Under the pieces are notes generated by a model. The model saw only the letters and a list, made by a program, of their open reading frames with translations, was not told the origin of the DNA and searched no databases. Source: Microgenomates group bacterium (GTDB lineage: Bacteria > Patescibacteriota > Microgenomatia > UBA1406 > GWC2-37-13). From it: 5,199 nt of DNA. Both the position numbers and the translations under genes were made by a program. Location: NCBI GenBank assembly GCA_028276105.1, contig JAPYWZ010000051.1:1-5199 (forward strand), given 5' to 3'. This document shows positions 884 to 3,154 of this stretch, piece by piece (the first letter of the stretch is position 1; the number at the start of each line of letters is the position of its first letter).

Positions 884-2173
884 TTAAATAAAGTACACCG
901 GTAAAAATAAAATCTTAGTTTGATTAAACTTTTTTTGACCAAAATAGTTTTTTGTTAAAACCACTCCCCTTTTTGGTTTATAAGTATCGCAAAAACTTAA
1001 AAAACTGCGAGAAATTTTTTCTTTATCAAATTCTTGATATTTAACTTCAAAAGGAACCATCTCCCCTTGGTAATCTAAGATAAAATCAACCTCAGCCCCC
1101 ATTTTCGTCCGCCAAAAATAAAGATGACTTAATTCTTTACGATAGTAAAAATTTTGAAAAACAAAGTTCTCAACCATGGCTCCTTTTTCAAAACGAATAT
1201 CAAGCGAACGAAAATCAGCTATCAAAGCATTCCTTAAACCCAAATCTAAAAAATAAACCTTAGGGGCTTTTTTGATTTCTGTCATTTTATTGGAGTAAAA
1301 AGGTGGAATAAGCTTTATCACAAAAGTATTTTCTAAAACCGCCGCTATTTTTTTTATTTCAAAAAGACTAACTCCCATCTCTGAAGCCATCCCTGAATAA
1401 TTCACTAAATTACCAATTTGACTGGCAAAAACTTTGGTAATTTTTTTAAACTCTAAAAAATTACCAATTTTTAAATATTTAATAATGTCTTTTTCAATAT
1501 AGGTTTCAATCAAAGAAAAAAGTCTTTCTTGTTTTTTCTTATTTTCTGACAAAACTATCGCCGGATAACCACCAAAAATCAGATACTCCTCAAATAAATT
1601 TTTTAGCTTTTCCTCAAAAATAAAAGAAGTTTTTGAAAATTTTTTCCCTAATAAAAAGCTATATAAATTTTTATTAAAAGTTTGCCATTGTTTAAAAAGG
1701 CTTTCATCTTTTGCCAAAAGAAATTCAGAAAAACTAAAAGGATAAAGATTAAAAAAAATCGCCCGGCCCACCAAATAAGAAGCAATTTCTCTGATTTGCA
1801 GATTGGATGAACCAGTGATGATAAACTTTGCCTTTTCAAAAAACTGATCAAAAAGAAGTTTTAAAATTTTGCCGGCATTTTTCACATACTGAAACTCATC
1901 AAAAAGAAAGTAGGTTTTTTTGTTTTTGGCAAGCTGAAGACTAACAAAATCTTTTGGTGATTTTAAAAAAGCCTCCAGTTGAAAACTATCTTCAAAGTTG
2001 ACATAAACAACTTTTTCTTTTTTAAGTTTTTCTTTTATTTGAAATAAAAGAGTGGTTTTCCCGGCCTGACGGGGACCATTGATAATAATAATTTCTTTCT
2101 CAAAAAGCCAAGAAAAAACCTTCGGCAAAATCTGCCGTGGTATGAGATTATCTTTACTTTTTTTTATTTTCAT
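884..2173 (-). CDS. AAA ATPase with DUF4143-type C-terminal domain
   Basis: The protein has 429 residues and belongs to the large family of prokaryotic ATPases pairing an AAA_14-type domain with DUF4143. Visible motifs: Walker A GPRQAGKT (33-40); Walker B FLFDEFQ (89-95); a sensor-like IITGSSN (118-124); the family block VGRAIFFNLYPFSFSEFL (135-152); EEYLIFGGYPAIV (195-207), which opens the DUF4143 part; and near the C-terminus GAEVDFIL (359-366) followed by FEVKY (375-379), the spacing of a PD-(D/E)XK nuclease-like fold (E361, D363, E376, K378). The family's cellular role is poorly defined; members are often accessory genes, so no function is assigned beyond ATP hydrolysis and possible nuclease activity. 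The start at 2173 is supported by a promoter whose -10 ends 6 nt upstream. The gene appears intact, with all key motifs present. Confidence 0.9.
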   Translation of the reverse strand: MKIKKSKDNLIPRQILPKVFSWLFEKEIIIINGPRQAGKTTLLFQIKEKLKKEKVVYVNFEDSFQLEAFLKSPKDFVSLQLAKNKKTYFLFDEFQYVKNAGKILKLLFDQFFEKAKFIITGSSNLQIREIASYLVGRAIFFNLYPFSFSEFLLAKDESLFKQWQTFNKNLYSFLLGKKFSKTSFIFEEKLKNLFEEYLIFGGYPAIVLSENKKKQERLFSLIETYIEKDIIKYLKIGNFLEFKKITKVFASQIGNLVNYSGMASEMGVSLFEIKKIAAVLENTFVIKLIPPFYSNKMTEIKKAPKVYFLDLGLRNALIADFRSLDIRFEKGAMVENFVFQNFYYRKELSHLYFWRTKMGAEVDFILDYQGEMVPFEVKYQEFDKEKISRSFLSFCDTYKPKRGVVLTKNYFGQKKFNQTKILFLPVYFI

Positions 2174-2316: not shown

Positions 2317-2418
2317 TTCTGTTTTTTATGCGATAGCAGTTAAAATAGAACTTATTTCTATAACAATCCAAAAATAAACAAAAATTCCATCTTGACAGCG
2401 ATAGCAGAAAAGATAGAA
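2317..2418. repeat. Left 102-bp double-palindrome unit (R1-linker-R2)
   Basis: R1 (2317-2350) and R2 (2385-2418) are each 34 bp, separated by a 34-bp linker. Each is an imperfect palindrome with 12 of 17 positions paired: outer arms of the type TTCT-TTTT / AAAA-AGAA and a core around GCGATAGC. R1 is identical to R3 on the far side of the Cas2-like gene. The whole unit matches the right unit (3053-3154) at 83 of 102 positions without gaps. R2 ends 7 nt before the start codon of the Cas2-like gene and contains its promoter. Confidence 0.9.
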
Positions 2419-2419
2419 T
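2392..2419 (+). promoter_or_regulatory. Promoter of the Cas2-like gene, embedded in palindrome R2
   Basis: TTGACA (2392-2397), a 16-bp spacer and TAGAAT (2414-2419) fit a sigma-70-type promoter. The -10 lies 6 nt before the ATG at 2426, the same geometry as the ATPase promoter, so a leaderless transcript is predicted. The palindrome core CAGCGATAGCAG sits between the -35 and -10, so any protein that binds the palindrome would shut off this promoter. The consensus-like -35 is present only in R2; the matching place in R4 reads TTGAAT and in R1 and R3 it is not promoter-like. Confidence 0.6.
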
Positions 2420-2425
2420 AAAATT

Positions 2426-2998
2426 ATGAGCACAGAAAAAACGTATGGAAAAATCGTTAAGAAAATGATTGATGTCTTTGCTGACCTTCTAATTGCTACT
2501 AAAATCTCCTATCTTCCTAGCCCCTACTATACTTTAGGAAAATTCATTAAAGCTCTTTTAGAAGAAGAAACAAATTTAAGTAAAAAACAGATTAAAAAAG
2601 CTCTTTACGATTTAAAAAAAAGACAACTGATTGATATTATTGAAAAAGACGGTCAAGTAAAAATCTATCTTCAAGAAAAAGGCAAGCAAAAAGTCATTAC
2701 CCGCTCAATCAAACTTCTTTTGGACTACAAGAAAAAAGAAAAAAAATGGGACGGCCGATGGTTTATGGTTTTTTTTGATGTACCAGAAATTGAAAAACAA
2801 AAACGAGAATTTTTAAGAAAATACCTTAAAAAATTGGGATTTTATCGGTATCAAAAAAGCGTCTATATCTTCCCTTTTGAGTGTAAAAAAGAGGTAGAAT
2901 TAATTAAAAAGATTGTCGAAGGCGCTAAATATATGAAATACATAATCGCCGAAGAAATCGAGGAGGAAGAAAAAATAAAAAAATATTTTAACCTTTAA
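2426..2998 (+). CDS. Winged-helix plus Cas2-like domain protein (PaaX-type)
   Basis: The protein has 190 residues. The N-terminal half looks like a winged helix-turn-helix (about 35-90), with helices around YTLGKFIKALLEE and LSKKQIKKALYDLKKRQLI and a wing-like strand pair ending in KIYLQEKGK. The C-terminal part (about 109-178) resembles the Cas2 ferredoxin fold: strand WFMVFFDVP with D118 where Cas2 has its metal-binding Asp, helix KREFLRKYLKKLGF, then YRYQKSVYIFP. This order matches PaaX-family regulators, which have an HTH followed by a Cas2-like domain, but full PaaX proteins are near 300 residues and this one lacks their last domain. There is no cas1 and no true CRISPR array nearby. It is flanked by identical palindromes with its promoter inside one. 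The likeliest role is an autorepressor; a nuclease or mobility function for the palindromes is the alternative. The ATG at 2426 fits the promoter spacing. Confidence 0.85.
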   Translation: MSTEKTYGKIVKKMIDVFADLLIATKISYLPSPYYTLGKFIKALLEEETNLSKKQIKKALYDLKKRQLIDIIEKDGQVKIYLQEKGKQKVITRSIKLLLDYKKKEKKWDGRWFMVFFDVPEIEKQKREFLRKYLKKLGFYRYQKSVYIFPFECKKEVELIKKIVEGAKYMKYIIAEEIEEEEKIKKYFNL

Positions 2999-3052
2999 CA
3001 CTAAAATCTCCAAATTATTCAAAAAATCATTCAAAGTTTCTTTGTAAAAAAA

Positions 3053-3154
3053 TTCTGTTTTTTATGCGATAGCAGTTAAAATAGAAAGTATTTTCACAAC
3101 AATCTAAATTAAAATAAAAATTCTATCTTGAATGCGATCGCTGTTAAAACAGAA
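3053..3154. repeat. Right 102-bp double-palindrome unit (R3-linker-R4)
   Basis: R3 (3053-3086) is identical to R1 over all 34 bases. The linker (3087-3120) matches the left linker at 24 of 34 positions and shares the block ACAATC. R4 (3121-3154) matches R2 at 25 of 34. R4 carries the perfect core GCGATCGC at 3134-3141. It lies 54 bp after the stop codon of the Cas2-like gene. R4 is followed by TTTT, so it could add some transcription termination, but its pairing is too imperfect to call it a terminator. The remaining 3155-3205 is a T-rich tract with no gene. Confidence 0.9.

Follow-up and report, generated by a model that had tools for sequence, protein, structure and literature searches.

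The window analysed here is a stretch of 5,199 nucleotides (positions 1 to 5,199 of contig JAPYWZ010000051.1, assembly GCA_028276105.1) from a Microgenomates group bacterium. It contains one short gene coding for a protein with a Cas2-like domain, and each side of this gene carries a pair of palindromes. What could a Cas2-like protein be doing between two palindrome doublets? The original prediction, made from the window alone, had put forward two models, a mobile unit whose ends are palindrome pairs recognised by the protein, and an autorepressor with paired operators. The features of the locus are as follows.

2317..2350, plus strand: R1, outer upstream palindrome of the upstream doublet (12/17 pairs; identical to R3)
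2351..2384, plus strand: upstream linker, 34 bp (24/34 identical to the downstream linker)
2385..2418, plus strand: R2, inner upstream palindrome, predicted operator (12/17 pairs)
2392..2397, plus strand: predicted -35 box TTGACA, within R2 (consensus scan)
2414..2419, plus strand: predicted -10 box TAGAAT, right edge of R2, 6 nt before the ATG (consensus scan)
2426..2998, plus strand: gene for the 190-aa PaaX_M/Cas2-like protein (ORF; Pfam; predicted model and fold search)
2741..2971, plus strand: Cas2-like domain (PaaX_M, residues 106-182; Pfam; Asp118 conserved)
3053..3086, plus strand: R3, inner downstream palindrome, identical to R1 (12/17 pairs)
3087..3120, plus strand: downstream linker, 34 bp (24/34 identical to the upstream linker)
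3121..3154, plus strand: R4, outer downstream palindrome, core GCGATCGC (12/17 pairs)

The palindrome doublets and the protein

The 34+34+34 units were borne out. R1 and R3 are the same sequence, the linkers agree at 24 of 34 positions, R2 and R4 match at 25 of 34, and the distance from R1 to R2 and from R3 to R4, centre to centre, is 68 bp on either side of the gene. All four palindromes are imperfect. As direct repeats the 106-bp flanks of the gene are 82% identical, and the best ungapped score of the upstream against the downstream flank is 68, against a maximum of 25 in 300 sequences generated from these flanks by a first-order Markov model. The linkers are alike across six aligned units. 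It should be noted here that the exact doublet is not universal in the protein family, as among 31 loci a single palindrome per side was more frequent than a doublet. A gene for an AAA_14/DUF4143 ATPase (884-2173, minus strand) adjoins the palindrome-flanked element.

A Pfam scan of the 190-aa protein gave two matches above the cut-off, PaaX_M (PF20803; 2.1e-20) and Cas2 (1.5e-6). The same scan gave no match to PF01797 (HuH Y1 transposase) and none to a C-terminal PaaX family. The sequence contains zero histidines and therefore no HUH motif. Against the PaaX equivalog TIGR02277 the protein scores 34.6 bits, below the cut-off of 264.55. The AlphaFold model has a mean pLDDT of 71, and per block of ten residues the values run from 73 to 96 in residues 101-190 and from 43 to 67 in residues 1-100. 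The top Foldseek match of the predicted model was E. coli PaaX (8a39, E 2.7e-4), followed by Cas2. In 155 aligned family proteins the conservation (rounded) is 1.00 for Asp118 and Trp108 and 0.99 for Trp112. Asp118 stands at the position of the active-site aspartate of Cas2.

Relatives of the protein are also encoded elsewhere in the window genome (G000, 86% complete). One on another contig is a 57% identical paralogue (G000:C49:1149-1760) that has its own TTTACCATCTT-type palindromes, one upstream and two downstream. Of two distant relatives on contig C117, one (G000:C117:9462-10085) lies between two genes that by eye resemble parts of comEC, and the other (G000:C117:10953-11687) has 244 aa and corresponds to proteins of about 250 aa in several further genomes of the family.

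The gene was found in 31 of 144 genomes (E <= 1e-20) and in 105 of 380 genomes of the phylum (E <= 1e-15), its own genome included each time. A genome can contain up to eight matches, where at most eight candidates were scored in most genomes. A scan of genome contigs gave 408 loci with a family gene; the titles of the best 80 of 408, which were retained, name Roizman-, Nomura-, Harrison- and Nealsonbacteria and others, with one Nanoarchaeota label and several entries called only 'bacterium'. The former names we take to be Patescibacteria lineages. Among the best 120 of 436 homologues most are unnamed, and the name given by several sources is 'CRISPR-associated endonuclease Cas2'. Metagenomes contain relatives with 83-95% identity. 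One scan of viral contigs found no relative.

Matched palindromic flanks across the family

Gene-specific, mostly palindromic sequences flank most of the family members tested. Among the 132 unique genes whose flanks could be read, 103 had an upstream sequence that was matched downstream, a match being a score above the 99% level of mismatched pairs, with palindromy not required. By set the counts were 67/87 for the discovery set and 22/28 and 14/17 for two later sets, the latter two (36/45) having been fetched after the pattern was first noticed. As many as 91 of the 103 matches lay above every null value. At least 12 of 17 palindrome pairs were present in 87 of the 103 matched flanks and in 12 of 103 random stretches of the same length from the same loci; for at least 13 of 17 pairs the counts were 75 and 6. 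The remaining 16 of the 103 matches fall under 12/17 pairs.

Palindromes were also counted beside family genes and beside control ORFs. Those with at least 13/17 pairs occur upstream of 64/148 family genes vs 21/1000 control ORFs and downstream of 70/155 vs 37/1005. When at least 16/17 pairs were required, the counts were 28/148 vs 6/1000 other ORFs of the same loci upstream and 35/155 vs 10/1005 downstream. A strict detector of zero-loop palindromes with a G+C-containing core, which the imperfect palindromes of the window themselves fail, found 32 palindromes in 47 kb around the genes of 42 loci vs 10 in the other 448 kb. When the core was defined a little more loosely, 51 loci (an earlier locus being repeated among them) gave 38 in 53 kb vs 18 in 356 kb, and in 29 later loci there were 18 in 15 kb near the genes vs 3 in 68 kb. 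Many loci of the Parcubacteria type have perfect 34-bp palindromes. The arms vary between genes, and the commonest central four bases are GATC (27/79) and GGCC (24/79).

The association of this protein family with palindromes had initially been an inference from a single locus. It is now strongly supported by the matched flanks. Orthologues without palindromes, which had been named as evidence that would speak against the idea, are not the rule; yet in 29 of the 132 genes there is no flank match above the threshold.

Palindromes away from the gene

Palindromes matching those of a gene also occur dispersed in the same genome. With a model of the 102-bp unit, six complete copies were detected in the window genome, of which two flank the gene and one each lies on contigs C38, C52, C68 and C117. 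Partial units are present on C38 (at the contig end), C73 and C94. The model has matches in six of 70 genomes of the family, with genome G017 second only to the window genome. In G017 the palindromes come as pairs 68 bp apart (L310, L311), as one pair 75 bp apart (L313) and as singles. In this 90% complete assembly there are doublets, but the search for the gene gave no more than a distant relative of 255 aa (E=2.2e-11), which is the main result against a strict link between gene and palindrome. Palindromes found widely with no link to the protein family had been thought of as a second kind of contrary evidence. Such a state is not the rule, and yet G017 has its doublets and no close gene.

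A model of the perfect-type palindromes matched 13 of 15 gene-bearing genomes vs 1 of 14 gene-free ones (Fisher 2e-5 at the search threshold), in a set of 30 hand-picked genomes where the model was built partly from genomes that were then searched, and where relatedness is uncontrolled because the gene-free genomes, all of the window's class, are nearer to the window than the more distant gene-bearing ones. The gene-bearing genomes with no match to this model are G165 and G435. The window genome was set aside from the count for its imperfect palindromes and scored none; with it included the figure is 13/16 (6e-5). Gene-free here means no gene in the searches at E <= 1e-20 or E <= 1e-15; four of these genomes were searched again, and three of them have a distant PaaX-like relative.

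In genome G355 (scored 100% complete, 8 contigs) the palindrome before gene C6 occurs at five other sites, identical up to orientation, and the palindrome of gene C4 is found again on C1. Dispersed palindromes of the type under study lie in the tRNA-modification gene tsaD, in another long ORF and close behind the stop codons of ORFs.

Some further observations on repeats were made in these genomes. At some dispersed palindromes of G355 complementarity continues between the two flanks for up to about 12 bp past the 34 bp, and the sites L244:356-389 and L275:2012-2045 have one flank in common in opposite orientation. An inversion, target choice or an assembly effect could account for this. Genome G043 contains a 110-bp dispersed repeat (L085:5461-5567) in about a dozen copies, most of 87-93% identity and one near a family gene on C3; it was rejected as a palindrome of the type studied here and belongs to another family.

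Insertions in tsaD and the gene-bearing copies

Perfect palindromes are present as in-frame extra sequence in the tsaD gene of three genomes. Different palindromes of 36, 40 and 44 bp occupy one position in G244, G321 and G492, where the stretch measures 126, 132 and 123 nt vs 84 nt in four measured palindrome-free relatives. The excess is thus +42, +48 and +39 nt, and the reading frame is kept in all three. The alignment covers 11 of the 16 genomes with a match, and in its eight other members no palindrome of this type was found at the site. The G244 insert is one of the TCCTCG palindromes, which occur also beside a family gene on contig C9. A 20-bp palindrome of type CCTGCCTGCCGGCAGGCAGG recurs in the genomes of L047, L051, L072 and L300, and a variant of it forms another, 21-nt in-frame insert in tsaD of G400, one of these eight relatives.

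Between gene-bearing copies in unlike contexts homology stops at the palindromes, for example at -54 and +24 in L087/L094. Among 864 gene pairs with matching DNA, 36 have flanks in common. In some cases the copies of different species lie between the same flanks, and these were therefore inherited in place. Neither a target-site duplication nor a clean empty site was found for the gene-bearing copies compared. The insertions that were seen are composite, as in G068, which carries a second stretch matching G070 elsewhere, or sit within a rearranged region, as in G071/G067. In the cases compared, the ends of the copies do coincide with the palindromes. The mobile-unit model gains support in part. 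Doublets are dispersed without the gene, as are palindromes, which also lie in frame in tsaD, but ends defined by palindrome pairs are not supported as a general feature, many relatives having single palindromes.

Palindrome anatomy and predicted autorepression

The anatomy of the palindromes was studied in 79 aligned pairs of copies from 158 genes, in which pairs 1-3 are palindromic by selection. Upstream and downstream copies agree at the core (pairs 1-4) and in the outer arms (pairs 10-16), and pairs 5-8 are variable. Such a pattern would be expected if a dimer reads the core together with two arms at a distance of one helical turn. The median distance from the centre of the upstream copy to the gene start is 30 bp, and the downstream copy lies at a median of 27 nt past the stop codon.

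R2 of the window contains TTGACA and TAGAAT at a spacing of 16 bp, and the end of TAGAAT is 6 nt from the ATG. On the same strand a centred promoter score of at least 9 of 12 was reached by 28/79 upstream copies vs 5/79 downstream copies; on the other strand 7/79 downstream copies reach it. A palindromic operator placed over a promoter fits these data at the sequence level. As the upstream copy often overlaps a promoter, and R2 holds a predicted one in the window, autorepression is predicted, and the autorepressor model gains support to this extent.

Co-variation of proteins and palindromes increases with relatedness, the identity going from 0.52 to 0.93 for the core and from 0.32 to 0.77 for the arms. 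Such co-variation would be compatible with co-evolution and with common descent alike.

Comparison with known systems

The nearest likeness is to the REPtron, that is, a RAYT (TnpA-REP) gene together with its REP sequences. According to PMC2817692 and PMC8266576, the RAYT protein is a HuH Y1 transposase, and the REPs, which bear a GT(A/G)G head, stand inverted to each other on the two sides of the gene. As in the REPtron of PMC2817692, two palindrome copies enclose the gene here, further copies are scattered over the genome, every gene has a palindrome of its own, and palindromicity is retained while the sequence drifts. The protein here differs in being PaaX_M/Cas2-like without histidine, unlike a HuH Y1 transposase. 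The GT(A/G)G head was found at 1 of 316 palindrome edges, where about 11 are expected. For 81 pairs the orientation is clearly direct in 11, clearly inverted in 5 and undecided in 65, against the inverted REPs of RAYTs (PMC2817692). Without the HuH transposase and the GTAG head, membership in the REPtrons fails; the likeness in working stands.

The REPIN, as described in PMC3116915, consists of two palindromes and a spacer as the repeated unit, the halves being mostly inverted and forming one long hairpin. The doublet is likewise a repeated unit, with about 68-75 bp between the centres in the window genome and G017. It differs in that each half is itself palindromic and does not have to pair with the other.

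Rickettsia palindromic elements are palindromes inserted in frame into protein genes, and they are longer than the palindromes described here. The in-frame inserts in a conserved gene are common to both, tsaD being with the palindrome in 3 and without it in 8 of the 11 aligned genomes. The present palindromes differ in being shorter and tied to a dedicated gene family. With the PaaX repressor the protein shares a helical N-terminus (predicted with low confidence) and the Cas2-like middle domain PF20803. It differs by the lack of a C-terminal PaaX domain in the Pfam scan, by its score of 34.6 of 264.55 bits for TIGR02277, by several copies per genome and by palindromes on both sides. With the Cas2 of CRISPR systems it shares the domain fold and the conserved aspartate at the active-site position. 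Here the difference is that no Cas1 was found in the window genome and no array was seen. Of 12 genomes tested two had a Cas1 match, G017 and G467. No array of repeats with variable spacers was found, the six aligned units being doublets with similar linkers.

Weighing the explanations

An explanation by autorepression only would make the protein a PaaX-like repressor and the palindromes the operators of its own and other genes, with no part in their spread. The promoter in the upstream palindrome, the best fold match to a repressor and the conservation pattern like that of a dimer site all speak for it. It leaves little place, however, for the matching second copy past the stop codon in 103/132 genes, where high promoter scores are rare on either strand, or for palindromes dispersed in tsaD, in another long ORF and behind stop codons, or for the identical copies at five scattered sites of G355, and we regard it as rather unlikely. 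It could also be that another enzyme, for example a RAYT-type Y1 transposase, moves the palindromes, with the Cas2-like gene as a passenger, or as a regulator which has adopted them. PF01797 gave a match in 9 of the 12 genomes tested, where such a protein could be the mover; G017 has such a match with its doublets and no close Cas2-like gene, and CGTC-type REPs are said to be without a dedicated transposase in PMC3733652. Such a mover appears improbable, as PF01797 has no match in the window genome (86% complete), G256 and G467, all of which have palindromes or doublets, the GTAG head is rarer at the edges than expected, 0 of 13 listed G355 sites are within 5 kb of the three Y1 matches of that genome, and it is the Cas2-like gene that the palindromes flank.

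The palindromes might instead act in RNA, as terminators or stabilisers. Downstream copies do lie close past the stop codon, and in 19 near-perfect pairs 34 of 55 changed pair positions have paired changes that preserve self-complementarity; these pairs were selected for palindromy, the paired changes are partly a product of this selection, and they are therefore not taken as proof of hairpin function. No downstream copy (0/79) has at least 7 T in the next 10 nt, and the terminator reading was rejected. G-T mismatches stand to A-C mismatches as 35 to 37 upstream (no excess) and as 29 to 18 downstream (a slight excess), so the G-U signal is not clear and the RNA-hairpin reading was rejected too. 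With no T-tract, G-T not clearly above A-C and the upstream copy often on a promoter, a role in transcripts is very improbable. Least credible of all is a CRISPR-like adaptation in which an orphan Cas2 serves repeat-spacer-repeat units. The 34-bp palindromic repeats, the 34-bp linkers and a Cas2-like domain with its conserved Asp had made it worth considering. It is largely refuted and was rejected, as 10 of 12 genomes tested, the window genome included, have no Cas1 match, the units are doublets with similar and non-variable linkers, many relatives have no doublet, and no arrays were found in the loci examined.

The account that we hold to be moderately probable is that of a gene placed between two copies of a doublet which also occurs gene-free elsewhere in its genome. 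A dimer of its protein likely binds the palindromes, would use the upstream copy to repress the promoter of the gene, and is predicted to promote the spread of the palindromes. Our best reading is thus of a probable REPtron-like system built on a Cas2-fold protein. The N-terminal wHTH of the dimer would contact the outer arms and the core of the palindrome. Binding at the upstream palindrome, inside which the promoter lies, would repress transcription of the gene. The protein may then help to copy palindromes to other places, the part that RAYT proteins are thought to play for REPs, and the Cas2-like domain, by a chemistry that is likewise conjectural, could be directly involved in copying or moving them. 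Relatives of the protein carry the label 'CRISPR-associated endonuclease Cas2', but the window genome gave no Cas1 match. If this reading holds, orphan Cas2 genes of this kind in Patescibacteria would belong to palindrome families that shape very small genomes and may even insert in frame into conserved genes. The Cas2 fold would here be linked to palindromic repeats in a context other than CRISPR, and a REP-like system would have arisen by a second, unrelated route. In the open-access literature searched, no report of such a system of Cas2-like gene and palindromes was found.

A bolder proposal goes beyond this REPtron-like reading, and we offer it tentatively, as possible but doubtful. The Cas2-fold protein would be the enzyme that mobilises dispersed palindromes of a new class, and many orphan 'CRISPR Cas2' genes of Patescibacteria would each drive their own REP-like family, copying it through DNA hairpins with Asp118 in the active site. 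If the proposal is true, Cas2 would be associated with palindromic repeats outside CRISPR too, in a selfish system that may be related to the one which CRISPR took over.
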